From Cytophagales bacterium (GTDB lineage Bacteria > Bacteroidota > Bacteroidia > Cytophagales > Microscillaceae): a DNA stretch of 64,000 nucleotides. Position numbers and translations under genes: made by a program. A model generated the notes under the pieces. That model was not told where the DNA came from. It searched no databases and was given only the letters and a program-made list of their open reading frames with translations. Shown piece after piece: positions 38,802-48,442 of this stretch (its first letter is position 1; each line of letters starts with the position of its first letter). The stretch spans positions 1 through 64,000 of the forward strand of contig RDZE01000039.1 of NCBI GenBank assembly GCA_004293905.1, read 5' to 3'.

Positions 38802-38970
38802 AGTTGTTTGTTTTACACTGCGCAAATTTAGTTTCTTTTTCCTGATTTCTCAAAGCATTTTGAATAGCGTAGCGCATTTTGTATTGTACAAAACTTAACT
38901 ACCCAAAAAGCGCAATAAATGGGACAAAAGACGCAATGCGTATTTTGTATTATTTTTTAAGTTTACTTCT

Positions 38971-39016
38971 TATCTTTGCCTAAAGATGTATGCGAGTTGC
39001 GTATATTATAACGTTA
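38971..39016 (+). promoter_or_regulatory. array B leader: -7 box plus shared 31-bp integration-site-like sequence
   Basis: TATCTTTG (38971-38978) fully matches the TAnnTTTG box, and a TTTG lies 23 bp before it (38944-38947). Eight bp later starts the 31-bp sequence shared with array A (38986-39016; one mismatch), ending at GTTA, where the first cassette begins. Upstream, GCGCATTTTGTATTG (38872-38886) and a diverged copy at 38937 also echo the array A leader. Interpreted as cassette promoter plus attI-like site. Confidence 0.6.
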
Positions 39017-39148
39017 GTGGCTATTTTAAAGACAGTAAAACAAATCTTTGATTCCAAACACCTTGAAAATAGTTGTTTAGCGACGAAAAAACTGCGAATA
39101 AGCCGAAAAATCAGTTAAAAAAGGAAGTAGGCATTTACTTTAAATTCT

Positions 39149-39316
39149 ATGTATATGAACCAAATAGTTCAGAAACAAGACCAATTTAATGAAGTTAGCA
39201 TTTTTGGAGTGGAAGAAATGCTAAAAGTTGTTAATTCAACACCACTTCATTCAGACAGTGAAAAAATTGAAGATTATGGAGATTTATGCGACAGTGATTG
39301 CGTAGATTGTGATTAA
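39149..39316 (+). CDS. candidate RiPP precursor peptide
   Basis: A 55-codon frame (53 from the second ATG at 39155). The N-terminal part (NQIVQKQDQFNEVSIFGVEE) looks like a leader, with a helical region ending near VVNSTPLHSD. The C-terminal core is acidic and Cys-rich: YGDLCDSDCVDCD, with three Cys spaced C-x3-C-x2-C and alternating Asp. It lies right upstream of a radical SAM/SPASM enzyme and a 2OG-type oxygenase in the same cassette, with a strong hairpin in between, the usual layout of a precursor. The chemistry of the product (thioether, epimer, beta-hydroxy-Asp) cannot be told. Confidence 0.7.
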   Translation: MYMNQIVQKQDQFNEVSIFGVEEMLKVVNSTPLHSDSEKIEDYGDLCDSDCVDCD

Positions 39317-39327
39317 ACTTCGATTTT

Positions 39328-39355
39328 ACAGGGAAGTTTTACTTAACTTCCCTGT
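39328..39355 (+). terminator. attenuator-like hairpin between precursor and maturase
   Basis: ACAGGGAAGTT (39328-39338) and AACTTCCCTGT (39345-39355) pair perfectly over 11 bp around a 6-base loop, and TTTT follows. It begins 12 bp after the precursor stop codon. A partial terminator here would give much more precursor than enzyme transcript, a common RiPP arrangement. Confidence 0.8.
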
Positions 39356-39377
39356 TTTCAATAATAAATTAAAACCA

Positions 39378-40802
39378 ATGAATCTTATGCAAAAAGTAAA
39401 TAGTATTTCTCAGGTGGGTAGTTTACGTCAAATTTATATAAATACTTTTGATGACGGTTCAGGGTATGTATTTAATCCTGAAAATCCTTTTGGAGTGAAG
39501 TATCTTTCAAAACAAGCATTATCTTTATATAATGATATGATTGGAGAATATGGTAATCCGCCAATAATTGAATCGCCAAATGTTATTGAGAAACAATTTA
39601 TTGCTCAAGGTTTGGCAAGTTCCCCTAATTCTGTTTTTGAATTGGCAAAAAAGCCAAAGAAAGCATTAACTGTTTGGTATCATATTTCAAATGCTTGCAA
39701 CTTGTCTTGTCAATATTGCTACATTCCTAAATTAATGAAAGCAGTTGACTTGAACAATATGGAGAAGTTTTTTATGAGTTCTGAAACAACTAAAATATCA
39801 ACTGATAGTCTTTTCAAATATTGCTTAAGTGCTGGAATAACGCACTTGCAAATGAAATTTGCTGGTGGCGAACCTACCTTAAATACAGATTTAATAGAGC
39901 AAACTTGCAAATATGCACTAGATAAGTCAGAAGAAACAGGAGTTAAAGTAGGCTTTAGGATACTTACTAATGGAGTATTTATAAATAATGACATCTATGA
40001 TATTTTCAAAAAGTACAAGTTTGGAGTATCAATATCAATAGATGGAGACAAAAACAGACACGATGAAATACGATTTACTATACCTAAAAGTAGGGTTTTG
40101 GAGAATGATGAAAAATATAAAAAAGGAACTTGGGATGTTATTTCTGATAACATTGATAAACTTCTTTCGTTAGGAATAAAGCCTTATATTCTATGCACGG
40201 TAACACAAAAAAATTATAAATATTTGATGAATCTTGTCGAGTTTTGCGTAAGTAAAAAAATTGGCTTTAGGTTAAGTCCTGTACGTGATAATAAAACGCA
40301 CTTATTACCAAACTTACAAGAGGATATGCTTCAGCAACTTATAAGAATATATGATTGGCTTGGCGATAACCTTCCTATAACAATGCCTTTAGAAAGATTT
40401 GCAAGGTTTGCCGAGTGGAATCTTTTAGTAAAAAAGCAAATTGTTTGTGGTACTTGCAAAAGTATGATGTCAATTGACCAAAACGGAAATGTTGGAAGTT
40501 GTCAAATGAGAATGGATAAAGTATTTGGGAATGTTAATAATCAAACTCTTTCAGAGATTGTAAATGCTATTCAATCTGATGAGTCAAACAAATACATAGT
40601 AAATCCAAATGAAAAGACACAAGATTGTGTAACGTGCTTTTGGAGATACACTTGTGCAGGTGGATGTCCTGAACATACAAGAAACGCTATAGGTACAACT
40701 AACTCGCCTTCGCCTTGGTGTCATCTGTATCAAGAACTTTTACCATATTATATCAGGTCAATTGCAAAACAATATAAAAGGGCAAGCGAAATTAGTAAAT
40801 AA
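39378..40802 (+). CDS. radical SAM/SPASM peptide maturase
   Basis: About 474 residues. The radical SAM motif CNLSCQYCY (CX3CX2C) is near residue 110 of the chosen frame, followed by the GGEPTLN motif (MKFAGGEPTL). The C-terminal SPASM domain supplies more FeS ligands: CGTCKSMMSIDQNGNVGSCQ and CVTCFWRYTCAGGCPEH with a final Cys near SPWCHLY. The N-terminal 100 residues could hold a peptide-recognition region. Such enzymes make thioether, C-C or epimer changes in RiPP precursors. I start at ATG 39378 (another ATG is at 39387) because the longer GTG-started frame overlaps the precursor and the hairpin. It is followed by the oxygenase 8 bp later. Confidence 0.9.
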   Translation: MNLMQKVNSISQVGSLRQIYINTFDDGSGYVFNPENPFGVKYLSKQALSLYNDMIGEYGNPPIIESPNVIEKQFIAQGLASSPNSVFELAKKPKKALTVWYHISNACNLSCQYCYIPKLMKAVDLNNMEKFFMSSETTKISTDSLFKYCLSAGITHLQMKFAGGEPTLNTDLIEQTCKYALDKSEETGVKVGFRILTNGVFINNDIYDIFKKYKFGVSISIDGDKNRHDEIRFTIPKSRVLENDEKYKKGTWDVISDNIDKLLSLGIKPYILCTVTQKNYKYLMNLVEFCVSKKIGFRLSPVRDNKTHLLPNLQEDMLQQLIRIYDWLGDNLPITMPLERFARFAEWNLLVKKQIVCGTCKSMMSIDQNGNVGSCQMRMDKVFGNVNNQTLSEIVNAIQSDESNKYIVNPNEKTQDCVTCFWRYTCAGGCPEHTRNAIGTTNSPSPWCHLYQELLPYYIRSIAKQYKRASEISK

Positions 40803-40810
40803 ATACAACT

Positions 40811-41539
40811 ATGATTTACACTTTGATTCACTCGAATCATTTTGAAAATAATGCTCACAAGATACTACAGAACTTGGGTATTGGTAATGCTGTTCTTATT
40901 AAAAATGTTCCGACTCAAGACAATATCAGTTTGTTATCATATTGTGATATTTTAGGAGTGCCAAGTAAGGCAACAATTCGGTATCCTAATTTGCAAGATG
41001 ACTTTATTCATATTGTTCAAGATAGTCAAGTACCTATTAAAGACAAAAATGATAATATCGTTATATCATCTACATCACAGGAATTTGATTTACATACAGA
41101 TGAATATTTTCATTCTAACCCTGCTGATTATGTATTGTTACATTGTATAAAGGCAGATGAAAATAATGGAGGTCTATCCCGTATATGTTTTTTATCTAAA
41201 ATTTTGGATAAAATCCCTGAATGGCTATACCAAAATCTTCAAGAAGAAATATATCCTTGTCGTAAAAAAAAGACATCTATACTTTTTACTGAAAAAGATA
41301 GATTGAAAATAAAATTTAATCCATATGAAATACTTAGGGATTGTGAAAACCCAATAATTGAAAATGCTGTAAAAGAACTTCTAAATATTGCCCACCAAAG
41401 AATGATACATTTTGCTTTAGAAGAAGGCGATTGCCTAATTCTCAATAATAAAGAAGTTTTACACGGTCGAACAGCATTTTCAAAAAATAGTGGTCGATTA
41501 TTGAAAAGGGTACGATTGAACATTACCAATATAAAATAA
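40811..41539 (+). CDS. TauD/clavaminate synthase-like Fe(II)/2-oxoglutarate oxygenase
   Basis: A 242-residue enzyme with the TauD-type facial triad: HTD in FDLHTDEYFH (about residues 95-104), a distal His in EVLHGRTAF (near 219), and an Arg that would bind 2-oxoglutarate in RLLKRVRL (near 230-237). These enzymes hydroxylate, desaturate or close rings. It lies 8 bp after the radical SAM gene, in the same cassette as a Cys/Asp-rich peptide, so the peptide is its likely substrate, for instance by hydroxylation of Asp side chains. That substrate assignment is an inference. Confidence 0.85.
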   Translation: MIYTLIHSNHFENNAHKILQNLGIGNAVLIKNVPTQDNISLLSYCDILGVPSKATIRYPNLQDDFIHIVQDSQVPIKDKNDNIVISSTSQEFDLHTDEYFHSNPADYVLLHCIKADENNGGLSRICFLSKILDKIPEWLYQNLQEEIYPCRKKKTSILFTEKDRLKIKFNPYEILRDCENPIIENAVKELLNIAHQRMIHFALEEGDCLILNNKEVLHGRTAFSKNSGRLLKRVRLNITNIK

Positions 41540-41543
41540 AAAC

Positions 41544-41679
41544 AGCCACTAACATTGTATTATGAAAAAGGGGCAGAAGTGCTAAATTTGGGCTAAGGTG
41601 CTTTTTAGTAGCTTTGTGCTTAATGAAACTTTTGTACTTTTAAATCCCCTTCTTCATAAATACCTGTCCGTTAGCGGTA
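41544..41679 (+). other. attC-like recombination site B1
   Basis: Left core AGCCACTAAC (41544-41553) is the exact complement of the B1 cassette start at 39013. Arms TATGAAAAAGGGG (41561-41573) and CCCCTTCTTCATA (41646-41658) pair with one mismatch. The spacer holds AAGTGCTAAAT and AAGGTGCTTTT, text shared by several other sites. The right core GTTAGCGGTA (41670-41679) opens cassette B2. Confidence 0.8.
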
Positions 41680-41699
41680 ATCTTACAGAGACAGCGTAA

Positions 41700-42563
41700 A
41701 TGAATAAACTACCGAAAATAAAATTTAGGACAGACCTCGACCAATATGGTTTTGAGATTTTGTTGTTAGAAAATTTGACAAGTTCTGAACTGCCGACTGA
41801 CCACAATCCTTTTCAACCTCACAGACTTAATTTTTTTGCAGTTTTAATGCTTTCGGAAGGTAAAGTAAATCATATTTTAGACTTTACTAACACCACTATA
41901 AAAGAAAATGAAAGTATAGTAATCTCAAAGGGACAAGTACATTCTTTTGACAAGCTAAATGTTTACAAAGGATATTTAATCCTTTTTACGGAAGATTTTT
42001 TACAGAAAAATTTATCTAAATCAATCATAGATAATATTTCAAGAATCTACAATTACCATATTTTCGGTTCAAAATATAAAGTAGATACTGAAAGCTATGA
42101 AATTTTTAAATTGCTATATAAAGAGCAAGAACTAAAACATACTAATCTAAAAACAAATATTGTTGCTTCGTTACTTGCTTCTTTTTTGTTGAAATTAGAA
42201 AATCACAATCAGAAAGAACCCTTTAAAGTGACCTTTAATCACCAATACGATTTATTCACAACATTTGAAAAAAATGTGGAACTACATTTTACCGATAGTA
42301 GAAATGCCAATTTTTATGCCGATATGCAAAACATTACATACAAACATTTAAACGAAGTTTGCAAACAATTTTCCAATAAATCTGTCAAAGAGTTTATAGA
42401 CGATTTTATTATTCTAGAAGCCAAAAGACAACTTTCTTCTACTACTCTATCGGTTAAAGAAATTGCTTTCAATTGTGGCTTTGATGAAGTAACAAACTTT
42501 CAAAAATATTTCAAAAAAATAACCACAGAAACACCAGTAACTTTTAGACAAAAATTTCAATAG
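41700..42563 (+). CDS. AraC-family transcriptional regulator
   Basis: A 287-residue protein with an N-terminal cupin-like effector domain (residues 30-110, with HRLNFFAVLMLSEGKVNHIL and SKGQVHSF) and a C-terminal AraC helix-turn-helix pair (about 205-287; LSVKEIAFNCGFDEVTNFQK, then YFKKITTETPVTFRQKF). It is the first gene in cassette B2 and lies 92 bp before a membrane protein gene that it may regulate. Effector unknown. Confidence 0.9.
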   Translation: MNKLPKIKFRTDLDQYGFEILLLENLTSSELPTDHNPFQPHRLNFFAVLMLSEGKVNHILDFTNTTIKENESIVISKGQVHSFDKLNVYKGYLILFTEDFLQKNLSKSIIDNISRIYNYHIFGSKYKVDTESYEIFKLLYKEQELKHTNLKTNIVASLLASFLLKLENHNQKEPFKVTFNHQYDLFTTFEKNVELHFTDSRNANFYADMQNITYKHLNEVCKQFSNKSVKEFIDDFIILEAKRQLSSTTLSVKEIAFNCGFDEVTNFQKYFKKITTETPVTFRQKFQ

Positions 42564-42655
42564 GTTATACATTTACCATTCTTTGTGCTTTCTTGACCTT
42601 TCAGAATTTTGACAACCAAACTACTTTTGCATTTCATTAAATACAAAATAATAAA

Positions 42656-43051
42656 ATGATACAAGAAAATTCAATTCAAACAATGCCAAAATGGATAACA
42701 ATTTATTTGTGGATAGCTACCATAATGGCAACAATGTTCAGCATTTTAGCATATTTTAAACCCGAAGTGCAATTTGCCACTTGGGAAACTTTAACAGCTA
42801 CAGGTGCTACTTCATTAGCAGGTCCAATAGGACTGTATATTGCAAGAAATTTAGCTACAGCTTTTTCAGGATTTTATGCTTTGACACAAAAATCATTTCC
42901 AATGCTAAAAATGTTATTGGTATTAAGGCTAATAACTGATGGTTTAGATTTTGCACACAACGCAACAGCAGGAAATATGCAAGGTGGAGCTTTTGCCTTA
43001 ATTATGTTTTTAATAGAAGCATTTGCACTATTCAAAATTTCTAAAAAGTAA
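42656..43051 (+). CDS. small four-helix membrane protein
   Basis: 131 residues with about four hydrophobic segments (near 12-35, 55-75, 80-100, 105-128). The segment GLYIARNLATAFSGFYAL and the LVLRLITDGLDFAHNATAG loop resemble small DoxX/DUF4267-like membrane proteins of Bacteroidota. Function unknown. It is the second gene of cassette B2 after the AraC regulator. Confidence 0.7.
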   Translation: MIQENSIQTMPKWITIYLWIATIMATMFSILAYFKPEVQFATWETLTATGATSLAGPIGLYIARNLATAFSGFYALTQKSFPMLKMLLVLRLITDGLDFAHNATAGNMQGGAFALIMFLIEAFALFKISKK

Positions 43052-43124
43052 ATTTAAATCGAAATATCTTTAAAGGGACAATGCAGAAATGTATTGTCCT
43101 TTTTGGCATTGACGAACAAAAGAC

Positions 43125-43239
43125 TACCGCTAACAAGGATTTGCCAAAATGGGGGCATAAGTGCTAAATTAAACATTTGGAATTCTATTGAACTTTTTGC
43201 TAAAAATCCGCCACATCGCCAAGCCTTTTCCGTTATTCC
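43125..43239 (+). other. attC-like recombination site B2
   Basis: Left core TACCGCTAAC (43125-43134) is the exact complement of the B2 cassette start at 41670. Arms AAGGATTTGCCAAAATGGGG and CCGCCACATCGCCAAGCCTT pair imperfectly, with AAGTGCTAAAT in the spacer. The right core GTTATTCC (43232) opens cassette B3. Confidence 0.75.
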
Positions 43240-43426
43240 TCATTCTATGGACGACCGTGCTAACTCCAAACTTTCGGGCTGACAAACAAACGGACAATAA
43301 ACAAAAAACGACAACTAACTTTTACAAACTCCGCCTACAAAAAAAAATAAAATTTCATTTTTGTGATTTTTTTATAGCCGTTGCGAATAATTAGGAAAAT
43401 AGTGTTCAATTAAAAATATACTGACA

Positions 43427-43618
43427 ATGAACTTTAAGAAAATTCATCCTCTTTTTTGTGGCGTAGCTATTGTACTTGTTATTATTTGCTCGTTTAAATT
43501 AAAGGTTACACAAACTATAAATAACCTGCCTGCAAATTGTGCAGAAACTGCCGAAACAAAAACTTTTTTCATAGAACTTGTACATATAAATCCTCTTGAC
43601 TATGAAAAAGGAAGATAA
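43427..43618 (+). CDS. small membrane or secreted peptide
   Basis: A 63-residue frame with a hydrophobic stretch (LFCGVAIVLVIICSFKL) and two Cys after it. Its end overlaps the start of the sigma-factor gene by 17 bp. It could be a coupled small gene or a leader peptide. No family recognised. Confidence 0.4.
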   Translation: MNFKKIHPLFCGVAIVLVIICSFKLKVTQTINNLPANCAETAETKTFFIELVHINPLDYEKGR

Positions 43619-44093
43619 ATTCCTTTCGGTAATAGATAATCATAAGGGTATTCTATATAAGGTTGCCAATAACTATTGCAAGAATAGCGAAGATAGAAAG
43701 GACTTGATACAGGGAATAATCTATCAGCTTTGGAAAGCATTTGACAATTACAATCCACAGTTTCAATATTCTACTTGGATATATCGAATTTCTTTAAATG
43801 TAGCTATTTCATTTTATCGGAAAGAACGGACTATTACCCAAGCCAAAGTTGATATAGACGATAGTTTGCTTATTGTTTCTGACATTCTATTTAATCAGGA
43901 AATGGAAGATAATTTGAACTTGCTACATCAGTTTATATCCGAATTAAAGGAAGTGGACAAAGCCATAATGCTATTGTATTTGGAACAAAAATCTCATAAG
44001 GAGATAGCCGAAATTATAGGTATTAGTGAAAGTAACGTTGGCACTAAGGTCAGCAGAATTAAAATGTTATTAACTCAAAAATTTAAAAAATAA
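43602..44093 (+). CDS. ECF-type RNA polymerase sigma factor
   Basis: A 163-residue sigma-70-family protein of ECF type. Region 2 is seen in GIIYQLWKAFDNYNPQFQYS, then TWIYRISLNVAISFYRKE. Region 4 is in DKAIMLLYLEQKSHKEIAEI, then IGISESNVGTKVSRIKMLL. The ATG at 43602 gives the normal start. It is 4 bp from the downstream membrane protein gene, its probable partner. It is in cassette B3. An alternative sigma factor as cassette cargo could rewire host transcription. Confidence 0.9.
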   Translation: MKKEDKFLSVIDNHKGILYKVANNYCKNSEDRKDLIQGIIYQLWKAFDNYNPQFQYSTWIYRISLNVAISFYRKERTITQAKVDIDDSLLIVSDILFNQEMEDNLNLLHQFISELKEVDKAIMLLYLEQKSHKEIAEIIGISESNVGTKVSRIKMLLTQKFKK

Positions 44094-44097
44094 AAAA

Positions 44098-44772
44098 ATG
44101 GAACATACAGAAGTTTTAAACCTATGGAAAATGTATGACGACAAAGTAGAACAAGCATTGTCGCTCAACAAGAAAAATACGCAGGAAATATTGCGGATAA
44201 AAACAAAATCAGTATTATCTGAAATGAAACCGATAAAAATATTTACACTATTTGTCGGTATTATTTGGGTGCTGCTTGTCGGTATTATTGTTACAAATCT
44301 TTTCGTTTATGCTTATGATAAAGTAAGTTTATTTTTCCTCTATTCGGCTGCTGCACAGCTTTTATTGACTGCCGTTGCAATAGGTATTTATCTTTATCAG
44401 CTAATAATGATCTCTAATGTAAACATTTCTGAAAGCGTTATTACTGCTCAAAAAAAATTATCCTACTTAAAAGGCTCAACACTATGGTCTGCAAAAATTC
44501 TATTTTTACAGTTGCCTTTTTGGACAACCTTTTATTTATCAAAAGAAATGATAGTTAGCGGAAACATTGCTTACATTCTTGTAAACGGCTTCTTTACTTT
44601 GTTATTCGCTTATTTGGCAATTTGGTTATTTACCAATATTAAATACTCAAACAGAGACAAAAAATGGTTCAAAATGCTTTTTGAGGGCAAGGAATGGACT
44701 CCGATTATTAACTCTATTGAATTTTACAAAGAAATTGAGCAATATGAACAAAGTCAGGACAGCAAAGAATGA
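44098..44772 (+). CDS. membrane protein, probable anti-sigma partner
   Basis: A 224-residue protein with a soluble N-terminal part (MEHTEVLNLWKMYDDKVEQA...KTKSVLSEMKP, about 45 residues) and four membrane segments (near 47-70, 80-105, 135-155, 160-185), then a charged tail. This layout and the location 4 bp after the sigma gene fit an anti-sigma factor that holds the sigma at the membrane. Bacteroidota ECF operons often have such partners without clear zinc motifs. The role is inferred. Confidence 0.7.
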   Translation: MEHTEVLNLWKMYDDKVEQALSLNKKNTQEILRIKTKSVLSEMKPIKIFTLFVGIIWVLLVGIIVTNLFVYAYDKVSLFFLYSAAAQLLLTAVAIGIYLYQLIMISNVNISESVITAQKKLSYLKGSTLWSAKILFLQLPFWTTFYLSKEMIVSGNIAYILVNGFFTLLFAYLAIWLFTNIKYSNRDKKWFKMLFEGKEWTPIINSIEFYKEIEQYEQSQDSKE

Positions 44773-45025
44773 TGAACCCCGAAGAATACAGGCAACTCTT
44801 TTGATTGACGAGCCATATAAGGAAATCATCGAAAAAATCAGAAGAAAATATAATCCAGAATAGTGTAATTTAATCGGGTGTCATATCACTTTGCTAAGAG
44901 ATGACAAACTAACAGACATTGAAAACCTAACTAAAAATCTTTCAGAACTAAATGAGGAAACCTTTGAAATAGATTTGGGAAAACTCCTCAGGTCAGATGA
45001 CGACAAAAGACCAACCACTGATTGA
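44744..45025 (+). pseudogene. 2'-5' RNA ligase/phosphodiesterase family fragment with nonsense codon
   Basis: One frame reads ATLLIDEPYKEIIEKIRRKY, then NPE, TAG at 44861, then CNLIGCHITLLRDDKLTDIE, and ends at 45023-45025. DEPYKEI and HITLLRDD match the start of the 2'-5' RNA ligase (2H) family, with the first HxT motif (HIT). The second HxT half is absent. A TAG in place of a likely CAG and the missing C-terminal half show it is decayed. It overlaps the end of the anti-sigma-like gene in another frame and ends 10 bp before site B3. Confidence 0.55.
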
Positions 45026-45035
45026 TAGAAGAACG

Positions 45036-45173
45036 ATTCATAACACGATTTTGGCAAAAATGGCGAGTTCAGTGCTCCGCAGACAGTTTTGTGGTTAATC
45101 AAAGCTTGGTTCTCCGCATCAACATTTGTGTTGAAAATCGCCAACTTCGCCAAGCCGAAAATCGTTGTGCGTA
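45036..45173 (+). other. attC-like recombination site B3
   Basis: Left core ends ATAAC (45040-45044), complementary over only five bases to the cassette start GTTAT at 43232. Arms CGATTTTGGC and TGGCGA pair with TCGCCA and GCCGAAAATCG. An inner arm with AACATTTGTGTTG is also palindromic. The right core GTTGTGCGTA (45164) opens cassette B4. Confidence 0.65.
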
Positions 45174-45200
45174 ATTATAGAAACAAACAAATAAAAAAGT

Positions 45201-45791
45201 ATGGGCTTAGATATTGTAGAACTTCTTATGCGATTTGAAAAAGAGTTTAAAAAAGACGTACCAGACCAAGACGTAGGAAATATTAGCACTGTTGGTGATA
45301 TGGCAAATTGGTTTTACAACAATCTAACCATTTATCAACCAGACAAGAAAGTAGAAGAAATAATTTTCAATTCACTGAAAAAAGCCTTCCTCAAACTAAA
45401 TTTACAAAGTAATTTTAACTATGAAAATACGCTTGGAGATTTTATACCCAAAAATGATTTGTTAAACATTTGGAAAGAACTTGAACAGCAACTAAATTTA
45501 AAAATACCTGAACTTAATCCACAAGATTTGGCTGATAAAGAACTGAAAGAAATAAAAATATTCGGATTGACTATTTCAAAACCTAAACCACGAATTTTAG
45601 ACACGAATTTTCGTAGATTTGTAGAGTGTATTGGTGCATTGAATTATGAAAAATTTGTAGATTTTGATAACTTGACAAGTTTATTTGAGATAACGATTGC
45701 AATAATTGGCTTAACACAAGAAAAGTGTGGAATGGACATTGATGAAATATTTGTAGATAGTTCGTTTGTAAACGACTTGGGAATTGACTAA
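45201..45791 (+). CDS. acyl-carrier-protein-like protein, apparently circularly permuted
   Basis: A 196-residue protein. The N-terminus (GLDIVELLMRFEKEFKKDVP, then ISTVGDMANWFY) matches the second half of an acyl carrier protein, starting at the place of the DSL motif but with Gly instead of the Ser that takes phosphopantetheine. The C-terminus (DIDEIFVDSSFVNDLGID) matches the first half and stops at the residue before that Ser. The middle (about 50-110; SLKKAFLKL, TLGDFIPKNDLLNIWKELE, LNLKIPEL) resembles a second, degenerate ACP-type helix bundle. Without a Ser it cannot be a normal carrier. Sole gene of cassette B4. Confidence 0.7.
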   Translation: MGLDIVELLMRFEKEFKKDVPDQDVGNISTVGDMANWFYNNLTIYQPDKKVEEIIFNSLKKAFLKLNLQSNFNYENTLGDFIPKNDLLNIWKELEQQLNLKIPELNPQDLADKELKEIKIFGLTISKPKPRILDTNFRRFVECIGALNYEKFVDFDNLTSLFEITIAIIGLTQEKCGMDIDEIFVDSSFVNDLGID

Positions 45792-45801
45792 CAAAAATAA
45801 C

Positions 45802-45939
45802 TACGCACAACATTATTTTTGCGAAAATGCGGGCTGATGTGCTAAATTTAGGCTTTTGTGCTTTCTACAAACTTTGTGCGTAGGGCAAGGGAAGTGCTAT
45901 AAAATCCCGCCCTTCGCAAACATTTTTCCGTTGGCTGAA
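45802..45939 (+). other. attC-like recombination site B4
   Basis: Left core TACGCACAAC (45802-45811) is the exact complement of the B4 cassette start at 45164. Arms TTTGCGAAAATGCGGG (45818-45833) and CCCGCCCTTCGCAAA (45906-45920) pair well. The spacer has GTGCTAAAT. The right core GTTGGCTGAA (45930) opens cassette B5. Confidence 0.8.
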
Positions 45940-45972
45940 ATTGTAAGAAACGAAAACTAAAAAAACAAAAAT

Positions 45973-46200
45973 ATGCGAACAGTTCAGATAAAAATAAGTG
46001 AAACCGACTTCCAAAAATACAACTTAGGGAGTGGCGAAATGAAATTTACCGATTTGGTAGAAGTAATAAAACAAGAGTATGCACGTCAAGCATTATTGGA
46101 GTGTAACGAAATAGCCGATAAAGTTGGACTTTCCAAAATGACAATGGACGAAATCAACGCTGAAATCAAAGCCGTAAGAGATGCAAAAACTAATTCTTGA
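45973..46200 (+). CDS. antitoxin of a PIN-type toxin-antitoxin pair
   Basis: A 75-residue protein (MRTVQIKISETDFQKYNLGS..., with a helical LVEVIKQEYARQALLECNEIA segment and a charged C-terminal tail, SKMTMDEINAEIKAVRDAK). It is encoded directly before a PIN-domain toxin, overlapping it by 20 bp, as usual for such pairs. The N-terminal strand suggests a ribbon-helix-helix-type or similar DNA-binding fold. It is the first gene in cassette B5. Confidence 0.75.
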   Translation: MRTVQIKISETDFQKYNLGSGEMKFTDLVEVIKQEYARQALLECNEIADKVGLSKMTMDEINAEIKAVRDAKTNS

Positions 46201-46644
46201 CACGAATGTCATTGTTTCGGCACTTATTTCAAGTTCCATTCCAAGCAAGATTTTTACGAGTTGGTGCTAACCCGGAAAGTAGAAATTTGCCTTTCAGAAG
46301 AAGTTTTGGCTGAGTATGTAGAAGTGCTGAATAGAGATAAGTTCTCTAAATTTGCCAACTTCAAAACCAAAGCCGAAGTAGTGTTGAATAGGCTACGAGA
46401 AATCGCTACTTTCTATCAAACAGACCGAAAAATTGAAGTTTTGACAGATACAAGTGATAACAAATTTTTGGAATTAGCAGCAGTAAGTTCGGCAGACTAC
46501 TTCACAACAGGTAACACGCTTGACTTTACTATAACGGAGTTTGAATACACGAAAATATTGACACCGAGAGAATATTGGGACAATTACGCACCCCTAAATA
46601 ACAACAAATTCAGCCAACATTGCATTTGTGGCAAGGCGGGCTAA
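46181..46644 (+). pseudogene. PIN-domain toxin, frameshifted
   Basis: The start is MQKLILDTNVIVSALISSSI with the first acidic residue of the PIN active site. The frame breaks at a run of five T (46251-46255); one more T would give SKIFYELVLTRKVEICLSEE and lead on to SSADYFTTGNTLDF with the later acidic residues. So one T is missing, or frameshifting is programmed. PIN toxins are Mg-dependent ribonucleases. The stop codon (46642-46644) lies inside attC-like site B5, so the last 12 residues or so are encoded by the recombination site. Confidence 0.8.
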
Positions 46645-46746
46645 GGTGCTAAATGTGAACTTTGGTGCTTTTTATTTGGTTAGGTGCTTTGTGGGGCAAT
46701 AGTGCTATCAAACCCGCCCTGCACAAATGCTTTTCCGTTATGGGCA
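46609..46746 (+). other. attC-like recombination site B5
   Basis: Left core TTCAGCCAAC (46609-46618) is the exact complement of the B5 cassette start at 45930. Arms GCATTTGTGGCAAGGCGGG (46622-46640) and CCCGCCCTGCACAAATGC (46713-46730) pair almost fully. The spacer has AAGGTGCTAAAT and TTTGGTGCTTT. The right core GTTATGGGCA (46737-46746) opens cassette B6. Confidence 0.85.
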
Positions 46747-46766
46747 ATTTTGGAAACAAATATGAT

Positions 46767-47267
46767 ATGAGAAACGCATTAACAATTATAAATTCATTTT
46801 CTGTTGCATACAGAATAGCGGAGTTAATAATAGAAAGTTTAAAAATTTGGATTGCAATAAAACCCTTGCAATTTCTATTCAAAAAAAGGGACAAGAAAAT
46901 TCGAGCAATGTTAGAGAATTGTGCAGAAAATTCTGTTGGAAAAGATATTATCAAAATGCTTGACCAATATGACCTAAAACTCATTCCGTTCTACGAAGAA
47001 CACGACCTGAAACACATAGTTTTGGACTATGGAATGACCTCCGAAGAAGAAATTAGAATGCAAGCCTATTTATTTGGGAATGGTAATTGCAGTTTACCAT
47101 GTGTGTTATTCTTATTATCAGGTATTCTCTTGCCATCAGCGTGGGGTAAATTTTATGAAGATTATTGTAAAGGGAAAAATTCACCCAATATTTCACGCTT
47201 GAAACTTGAAAATTGTATGAACTTACCAACAACAGAATTGAAAAAGAAATATAAAAACTGCCCATAA
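46767..47267 (+). CDS. COQ4-like HDxxH protein
   Basis: A 166-residue protein. The segment FYEEHDLKHIVLDYGMTSEEEIRMQAY, with HDLKH and an acidic pair farther on, resembles the metal-binding HDxxH(x)E site of COQ4-type proteins. The FGNGNCSLPC and LSGILLPSAWGKF stretches resemble Bacteroidota homologues. COQ4 acts in ubiquinone synthesis in other bacteria and mitochondria; a role here is unproven. An upstream in-frame ATG at 46740 lies in the recombination core and is unlikely to be used. The TAA stop lies within the left core TGCCCATAAC of site B6. Only gene of cassette B6. Confidence 0.65.
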   Translation: MRNALTIINSFSVAYRIAELIIESLKIWIAIKPLQFLFKKRDKKIRAMLENCAENSVGKDIIKMLDQYDLKLIPFYEEHDLKHIVLDYGMTSEEEIRMQAYLFGNGNCSLPCVLFLLSGILLPSAWGKFYEDYCKGKNSPNISRLKLENCMNLPTTELKKKYKNCP

Positions 47268-47359
47268 CATTGCATTTGTAGCAAGGCGGGGCTAAGGTGC
47301 TAAATATGAACTTTGTGCCATTTAATCCTGCCCTTCCCCAACATTTTTCCGTTGTGTTC
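47259..47359 (+). other. attC-like recombination site B6
   Basis: Left core TGCCCATAAC (47259-47268) is the exact complement of the B6 cassette start at 46737. The left arm GCATTTGTAGCAAGGCGGGG is close to that of site B5; the right arm (CCTGCCCTTCCCCAACATTT) pairs less well and the spacer is shorter. The right core GTTGTGTTC (47351) opens cassette B7. Confidence 0.75.
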
Positions 47360-47392
47360 TATTTTATTTAGCATTTTTAAAAGCAAATTACA

Positions 47393-48289
47393 ATGAAAAA
47401 AATATTTTGCCTACTTATAATCTTCATCAACTTTATTGGTTTTACCAATGCACAAGATAACAACAGTATCGCTAATATAAATTCCATTTTTGACAAAATG
47501 GAACTTCAAGGTGTAGATACTAAAAAACCTTTACTATTTGGTTACTTTTTTTATGACACAGATAAATCAAAACTCGAACAACTCAAAAATGAGTTGCTTA
47601 AAGACGGTTATAAATTAGTCAGGCTTGAAAATACCGAAAAAAACATGTTTATTCTTCACGTAGAAAAAGTAGAAATACATACAAGAACCTCGCTATTGGA
47701 AAGAGGAAATGAACTCAATAAATTGGCTAAGAAATTTCAGGTAGCAACTTATGACGGTTGGGACGTTGGGAATGTAGACCCAACAAAACCTTTAGTTTCT
47801 ATGGATAGTTTTGACAAAAACTTGGACAGTAAATCAGATATTGAACTTTATAAAATTGCAAACGACTTCTATGACAGTGAAACAAATGATAAAGCTATTT
47901 TAGCATTTCAAAAATGTATCGACCGCAACTATAAATTAGACACCTGCTACTACAAACAAGGCGTTAGTTATATCGGTTTAGGGCAGACGAAAACAGGAAT
48001 TGAAAAGTTAGAACAAGCTTTAAAAGTCAATCCAAAATATTTCAAGGCTTGTTTCAACATTGGTGCGATTTGCTATGACAATCAAGAATATCAAAAATCA
48101 ATTGACTATTACCAAAGGGCTGCTAAACTTGAACCAAAAGACGACAGAGTTTATTATGGTATTGCTGCCTCACAGTTTGTTTTAGGGCTACTCAAAGACG
48201 CAGAAGTTAATTGCCAAACAGCCTTGAAATTCAATCCAAACAACAATAATGCAAAGATGCTTTTGGAGAGCATACAACGGAAAAAATAA
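47393..48289 (+). CDS. secreted TPR-repeat protein
   Basis: A 298-residue protein. A signal peptide (KKIFCLLIIFINFIGFTNAQ) is followed by a ribonuclease-E-inhibitor-like domain (residues 40-130, FDKMELQGVDTKKPLLFGYF, then KDGYKLVRLE and HTRTSLLERGNELNKLAKKF). TPR repeats lie at 150-295 (YKIANDFYDSETNDKAILAF, CYYKQGVSYIGLG, YFKACFNIGAICYDNQEYQK). The middle LVSMDSFDKN is a linker. Probably periplasmic and scaffold-like. The domain match is by eye and weak. Cargo of cassette B7. Confidence 0.75.
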   Translation: MKKIFCLLIIFINFIGFTNAQDNNSIANINSIFDKMELQGVDTKKPLLFGYFFYDTDKSKLEQLKNELLKDGYKLVRLENTEKNMFILHVEKVEIHTRTSLLERGNELNKLAKKFQVATYDGWDVGNVDPTKPLVSMDSFDKNLDSKSDIELYKIANDFYDSETNDKAILAFQKCIDRNYKLDTCYYKQGVSYIGLGQTKTGIEKLEQALKVNPKYFKACFNIGAICYDNQEYQKSIDYYQRAAKLEPKDDRVYYGIAASQFVLGLLKDAEVNCQTALKFNPNNNNAKMLLESIQRKK

Positions 48290-48310
48290 CAGGCAGATGC
48301 AAATAAAAAT

Positions 48311-48421
48311 AACTTATAACATATTTTTTGTATCGGGCGAGCTAAGGCACTGAAAATGAACTTATTTAGGAAGTAATAGTGCTGCTAAATCCCACCTTCG
48401 CCAAGCCGAAAACATTACTAA
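48311..48421 (+). other. attC-like recombination site B7, decayed
   Basis: CTTATAACATATTTTTTGTA has the AAC-ATTxxxTTTGT form of the other left sides, and the CCCACCTTCGCCAAGCCGAA arm and the GCTAAGGCACTGAAAAT spacer are recognisable. The left core does not match the B7 start (GTTGTGTTC), and no GTT follows on the right. It appears to have lost function. Confidence 0.55.
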
Positions 48422-48442
48422 TTATTATAAAACAACAACGCA

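Follow-up and report, generated by a model that had tools for sequence, protein, structure and literature searches.

A probable ranthipeptide-like peptide-modification operon carried as one cassette of an integron-like array in a Cytophagales bacterium

Contig RDZE01000039.1 of a Cytophagales bacterium (Bacteroidota; Microscillaceae; assembly GCA_004293905.1) was analyzed on the forward strand over positions 1–64,000, a stretch referred to here as the window. Positions 39149–41539 hold three co-directional genes on the + strand, which encode a short peptide, a radical S-adenosylmethionine (SAM) enzyme with a SPASM domain, and a TauD-family oxygenase whose start lies 8 nt past the stop of the radical SAM gene (Table 1). 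An earlier note on this DNA had described these genes as a complete pathway for a ribosomally synthesized and post-translationally modified peptide (RiPP) within one integron cassette. The coordinates that it gave for the three open reading frames (ORFs) agree with an ORF and translation check, and the RiPP-type arrangement, with a short precursor gene directly 5′ of modifying enzymes in the same cassette, is present. The three genes probably constitute a self-contained, ranthipeptide-like RiPP modification operon that forms one unit of an integron-like array.

The 55-residue product of the first gene (MYMNQIVQKQDQFNEVSIFGVEEMLKVVNSTPLHSDSEKIEDYGDLCDSDCVDCD) matches no family in Pfam or NCBIfam. 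Its putative core packs three thiols and five carboxylates into 12 residues, and the segment LCDSDCVDCD contains one exact CX3D motif (C51–D55) together with further Cys–Asp spacings of 0, 1, 2, and 5. An ORF of at least 53 residues is unremarkable in itself, as it arose in 104 of 3000 dinucleotide shuffles of the same stretch. A C-terminus with at least three Cys and at least four Asp in the last 12 residues arose in none of the 3000, and none of the other frames in the window (25 codons or longer) ends in this way. The Cys/Asp-rich precursor gene of 53–55 codons ending in GDLCDSDCVDCD, as described in the earlier note, is thus present, with a C-terminus that exceeds chance. The strong hairpin that was noticed between this gene and the enzyme genes is likewise confirmed (−10.2 kcal/mol; z = −3.5; 0/200 shuffles equally stable). 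Its identity as a terminator was rejected, because the T-run (TTTT only after the stem) is too short for the consensus.

The second gene product exceeds the curated Pfam cut-offs for both Radical_SAM (PF04055; 55 bits) and SPASM (PF13186; 27 bits). When tested against the signature CX9-15GX4C-CX2CX5CX3C-C, its SPASM domain has canonical spacing (C357-x12-G370-x4-C375 ... C417-x2-C420-x5-C426-x3-C430-x17-C448), and the seven SPASM Cys residues and the CX3CX2C motif are invariant across 17 relatives. The full signature bears out the earlier assignment to the SPASM enzymes, but the "CGTC" motif cited for it consists of one ligand (C357) and the non-conserved C360. In the AlphaFold model (pLDDT 80, pTM 0.82), residues 20–76 are predicted to adopt a β-β-β-α-α arrangement like that of peptide-recognition (RRE) domains. 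A fold search placed CteB (5wgg) first, over its full length including the RRE, followed by TigE (8vpo) and anaerobic sulfatase maturases; CteB is also the best PDB match by sequence. Anaerobic sulfatase maturase activity was itself ruled out: no C/S-x-P-x-R motif occurs in the core, and the score falls far short of the cut-off. A viperin-like role in defence was also ruled out, because the PADLOC pVip matches (50–62 bits) mirror only the shared radical SAM domain.

The third gene product scores 75 bits against the Pfam TauD family (PF02668; cut-off 27). Its iron ligands (H95-T-D97 and H218) and 2-oxoglutarate ligand (R229) are all present and invariant in the alignment, which verifies the HTD...H...R reading of the earlier note. 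The structures closest to the oxygenase model are AsnO (top), clavaminate synthase, KDO1, and VioC. Several of these enzymes hydroxylate the β-carbon (C3) of an amino acid. As the nearest structures include β-carbon hydroxylases, the second step is, by analogy, most likely β-hydroxylation of a residue in the core, probably an Asp. The oxygenase shares its fold and ligands with VioC, AsnO, and clavaminate synthase, but is shorter than these enzymes (242 amino acids) and 14–24% identical to them over the aligned parts, and their substrates are free amino acids or small molecules.

Table 1. Features of the three-gene cassette and of the array to which it belongs
Feature	Coordinates	Strand	Remarks
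Candidate array promoter, Bacteroidota-type consensus (TTTG-N-TAnnTTTG)	38944..38978	+	directly 5′ of cassette 1; pattern match
Cassette 1	39014..41670	+	three genes, nothing else; ends match 13/14
Precursor peptide gene	39149..39316	+	55 codons, or 53 from second ATG at 39155
Putative core GDLCDSDCVDCD	39278..39313	+	residues 44–55; Cys 47, 51, 54
Strong hairpin between precursor and enzymes	39328..39355	+	possible attenuator or RNA-stability element
Radical SAM/SPASM peptide maturase	39378..40802	+	474 amino acids; Pfam PF04055 and PF13186
RRE-like N-terminal region of maturase	39417..39647	+	PqqD-like β-β-β-α-α, ~residues 14–90
CX3CX2C, SAM-cleaving [4Fe-4S] cluster motif	39696..39719	+	C107, C111, C114; invariant in alignment
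Seven-Cys SPASM domain (two auxiliary Fe-S clusters)	40446..40721	+	residues 357–448
TauD-family Fe(II)/2-oxoglutarate oxygenase	40811..41539	+	242 amino acids; Pfam PF02668
attC-like recombination site closing cassette 1	41540..41683	+	site search, end pairing, covariance model
Remaining array, six cassettes	41671..48426	+	attC-like sites ~43121, 45031, 45801, 46608, 47258, 48310

The start of cassette 1 (GTTAGTGGCTATTT, 39013–39026) is identical at 13 of 14 positions to the reverse complement of 41540–41553, the sequence ahead of AAC at 41553. The same degree of matching is seen in four downstream cassettes (5/7 in all) and is poorer in the other two, and of all 5040 possible arrangements of the seven starts and ends, the one that pairs each start with its own end is the best. 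Complementary starts and ends (R′/R″) of this kind have the appearance of integron cassettes. The end match and the permutation ranking confirm that the three-gene operon stands alone in a single cassette. The array resembles CALIN, which are clusters of attC sites without an integrase (PMC9024848), in its co-oriented cassettes, the imperfect palindromes at their closes, and their matching start and end cores. It differs in that the core is conserved as GTT...AAC only, no integrase was found, and several cassettes contain two or three genes. The core departs from the canonical GTTRRRY, as only GTT is kept and the next four bases vary (GTTAGTG, GTTAGCG, GTTATTC, GTTGTGC, GTTGGCT). Palindromic arms with long loops are visible in the attC-like sites, and the folding of the seven sites compared with shuffled DNA gives z values from −1.5 to +1.3. 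No integron integrase (IntI) scored above the cut-off in this genome or those of 14 family members, a result that does not prove its absence because the genome is ~90% complete and no control genome matched. Of the term "integron" used in the earlier note, the cassette-end symmetry therefore stands, whereas the integrase was not found and the core does not follow GTTRRRY beyond GTT, and the array is here called integron-like.

In this genome, the covariance model of the sites detects 21 of them, spread over five contigs (C38, C11, C18, C1, C15). Across this bacterial family the attC-like sites are common, occurring in 12 of 15 genomes (this one and 11 others), where they close toxin-antitoxin-like and other small-gene cassettes; an integrase was not found among the genomes scanned. 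No other cassette or array bearing a radical SAM or TauD gene was found in six stretches of this genome and three relatives.

Searches of 57 relatives, 396 genomes of the phylum, 391 genomes of the order, plasmids, and viral contigs yielded no close homologue of the radical SAM enzyme. An alignment-based scan of GTDB contigs gave 75 loci, and in the resulting tree the window enzyme lies inside a supported clade (95/95) that contains three groups, all with support of 100. Bacteroidota members have the enzyme gene directly 3′ of a short gene with an N[DE]ILFDD leader and a core such as NCDCT, TDCDCSSY, YGDCGN, or NDCTNN. As the DCTNN and YGDCGN cores have no Asp downstream of Cys, CX3D is not shared by the whole clade. 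This precursor family, with NCDC or DC[GST]N cores (loci L002, L018, L069, L074, L076–L088, L094–L106, and L113), is undescribed, and two of its precursors that were examined match no model in Pfam or NCBIfam. A leader shared between this family and the window peptide is plausible by eye and was ruled out by profile search and pairwise comparison.

In Chloroflexi, a KSB1 genome, and a Streptosporangiaceae genome (loci L048–L066, L068, L075, and L091), one to three DCACAD/DCACPD-like motifs, with the variant [DN]CACAD, are fused to the SPASM enzyme on the N-terminal side of its RRE-like part; the enzyme of locus L065, for example, has two DCACPDK motifs. Of 20 fused forms, 15 contain CX3D, compared with 5.6 expected from shuffles, some of the 20 being near-copies, and other CXnD spacings are near chance, CX1D excepted. 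A gene for a STAND-like NTPase/TPR protein of ~1000 amino acids adjoins 17 of the 20, mostly directly upstream. In Chlorobium, a 157-residue protein with (CTQC)n repeats (L067:6183–6656) adjoins a SPASM enzyme that falls in the same clade. The earlier note had made its proposal depend on Cys/Asp-rich peptides standing beside homologous enzymes in other genomes, and relatives of the enzyme do adjoin or carry such peptides.

A further arrangement occurs in Pseudomonas rhodesiae, P. kielensis, and Azohydromonas aeria (L071:3457–9546, L072, and L092:219–6379), where a GRDP-like protein of ~168 amino acids with QKCPQVCPCN is followed by TauD, the SPASM enzyme, and then a UvrA-like ABC protein. These loci look like RiPP clusters in which the UvrA-like gene is a possible self-resistance gene. 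The combination of SPASM enzyme, TauD, and CPQVCPCN is independent in two proteobacterial lineages. The resemblance to the window operon lies in a TauD gene adjoining a radical SAM gene of the same clade, with a Cys-containing protein ahead; the TauD proteins are weakly similar to the window oxygenase (phmmer E 8e-4 to 5e-3). These loci differ in their putative GRDP-like substrate of ~168 amino acids and the UvrA-like protein that follows, and are not known in a cassette. The pairing of SPASM and TauD enzymes is thus uncommon but not unique. No description of this pairing, or of a RiPP in an integron cassette, was found in the open-access literature, and pathways of this kind are not known to move as single cassettes.

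Regarding class, the earlier note had recognized no RiPP class in this combination. Among NCBIfam models, PapB is the best match to the radical SAM enzyme (155 bits) and QhpD the third (121 bits), both well under their cut-offs; further matches include DynA, nif11, and other maturase models. PapB, CteB as the best structure, QhpD, and the presence of CX3D together make the operon look ranthipeptide-like, though the enzyme scores under the PapB cut-off. Like the PapA/PapB ranthipeptide system, it combines a radical SAM/SPASM enzyme with a short Cys/Asp-rich precursor containing CX3D. PapB links the Cys sulfur to the Asp Cβ in CX3D, and accepts CXnD with n = 0–6, nested or in line (PMC9413430). 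The window precursor is unrelated to PapA, has its motif at the C-terminus only, and contains one exact CX3D compared with six, and the window operon adds a TauD oxygenase and sits in a cassette. QhpD (PeaB) is likewise a SPASM enzyme, but modifies the γ subunit of quinohemoprotein amine dehydrogenase from a conserved peaA-peaB-qhpC-peaD operon, none of which is at the window locus. The thioethers that QhpD makes are Cys–Asp and Cys–Glu. The SCIFF maturase CteB (5wgg, 5why), although the best match in both sequence and fold, is 19% identical to the window enzyme; SCIFF precursors have a six-Cys motif in which the acceptors are Thr, not Asp.

In the proposed mechanism, the precursor leader (candidate stretch FNEVSIFGVEEML) would bind the SPASM enzyme at its RRE-like N-terminus, and the enzyme would take hydrogen from an Asp β-carbon and join this Asp to a Cys thiol. 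By analogy with the enzymes above, the likeliest product contains one to three Cys–Asp thioether rings within CDSDCVDCD, each changing the mass by −2 Da. The TauD-family oxygenase would hydroxylate this peptide at a β-carbon (+16 Da), most likely in an Asp, perhaps after cross-linking. Leader cleavage and export would be left to host proteins, and the hairpin between the first and second genes probably holds the level of the precursor above that of the enzymes. Tentatively, such an operon might represent a RiPP subclass in which SPASM-dependent Cys–Asp thioethers and TauD-dependent hydroxylation are combined on the same Asp-rich core, encoded in a single recombinable cassette, within a clade that includes self-modifying fused forms; this broader grouping is possible rather than probable.

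Within a RiPP operon, the SPASM enzyme could catalyze a different reaction, such as formation of an α-carbon sactionine, a Cys–Cys or carbon–carbon link, epimerization, or a TigE-type cyclopropane. SPASM enzymes that are close in sequence catalyze many reactions, TigE is the second-best protein by fold, several maturase models score on the enzyme, and the Bacteroidota cores without Asp after Cys would fit such chemistry. This reading is nevertheless rather unlikely, as PapB, QhpD, and CteB all form non-α thioethers, the fused relatives show an enrichment of CX3D, and the window core is nearly all Cys and Asp.

It is less likely still that the enzymes act on a small molecule or host protein, with the 55-residue frame being a regulatory leader peptide or a chance ORF. 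The insignificant length of the ORF, the lack of a detected homologue of the frame, and the amino-acid substrates of the oxygenase's structural relatives agree with that explanation; it conflicts with the Cys/Asp C-terminus, which shuffling did not reproduce, with the retention of the RRE-like domain, and with the Cys/Asp peptides that accompany relatives of the radical SAM enzyme, either at the equivalent position or as a fusion. β-Hydroxy-Asp is a common siderophore ligand, and a metallophore or metal buffer, in which the thiols of a Cys/Asp core with β-hydroxy-Asp were free or metal-coordinating, would account for a 12-residue core with three thiols and five carboxylates, but it is very improbable, as it leaves the SPASM enzyme unexplained and cassette 1 contains no uptake receptor or exporter.

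The ranthipeptide-like operon remains the preferred reading, and several observations weigh against it. The radical SAM enzyme forms a lone long branch in the tree, so that its nearest neighbour is unsure; it is 21–29% identical to the relatives found (best in GTDB contigs, 24–29%), and its PapB score of 155 bits does not reach the equivalog cut-off of 340 (NF047865). The precursor has only one exact CX3D, no homologue of it was detected by the profile of the Bacteroidota LFDD precursors, and only four of its residues align pairwise with the nearest-looking of these (L069). The structure predicted for the oxygenase is of modest quality (mean pLDDT 64), and the closest relatives with solved structures have mainly free amino acids as substrates. 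By Pfam and NCBIfam, cassette 1 carries no protease, exporter, or immunity gene, and adjacent cassettes carry other genes; the earlier description as a complete pathway is therefore too strong, and complete modification operon is the appropriate term.

If the proposal is correct, an entire pathway for peptide modification can move as a single integron-like cassette, which may still be mobile, and arrays could gather natural-product chemistry in the way that single genes are gathered. Uncharacterized SPASM enzymes of Bacteroidota, Chloroflexi, and Proteobacteria would also be united by a substrate theme of Asp/Asn-Cys-x-Cys, often with CX3D. As this theme includes enzymes that carry the substrate motif as a fusion, the chemistry would be testable with very small constructs.

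The cargo of the other cassettes (41700–48289) includes an AraC regulator with a small membrane protein, an extracytoplasmic function (ECF) sigma factor with a membrane protein, a short gene with a PIN-like gene (toxin-antitoxin-like), an RraB-TPR protein, and a protein whose start falls inside an acyl-carrier-like domain. At 1605–1706, a 48-codon frame weakly matches the C-terminal end of the integron integrase model and is a possible recombinase remnant. The Bacteroidota promoter pattern occurs 12 times in the window compared with 7 expected by chance, so that any one match, including the candidate array promoter, may be fortuitous. A match to this consensus lies at 41587–41616, inside one attC-like site, which suggests that such sites might supply a promoter to the cassette that follows.

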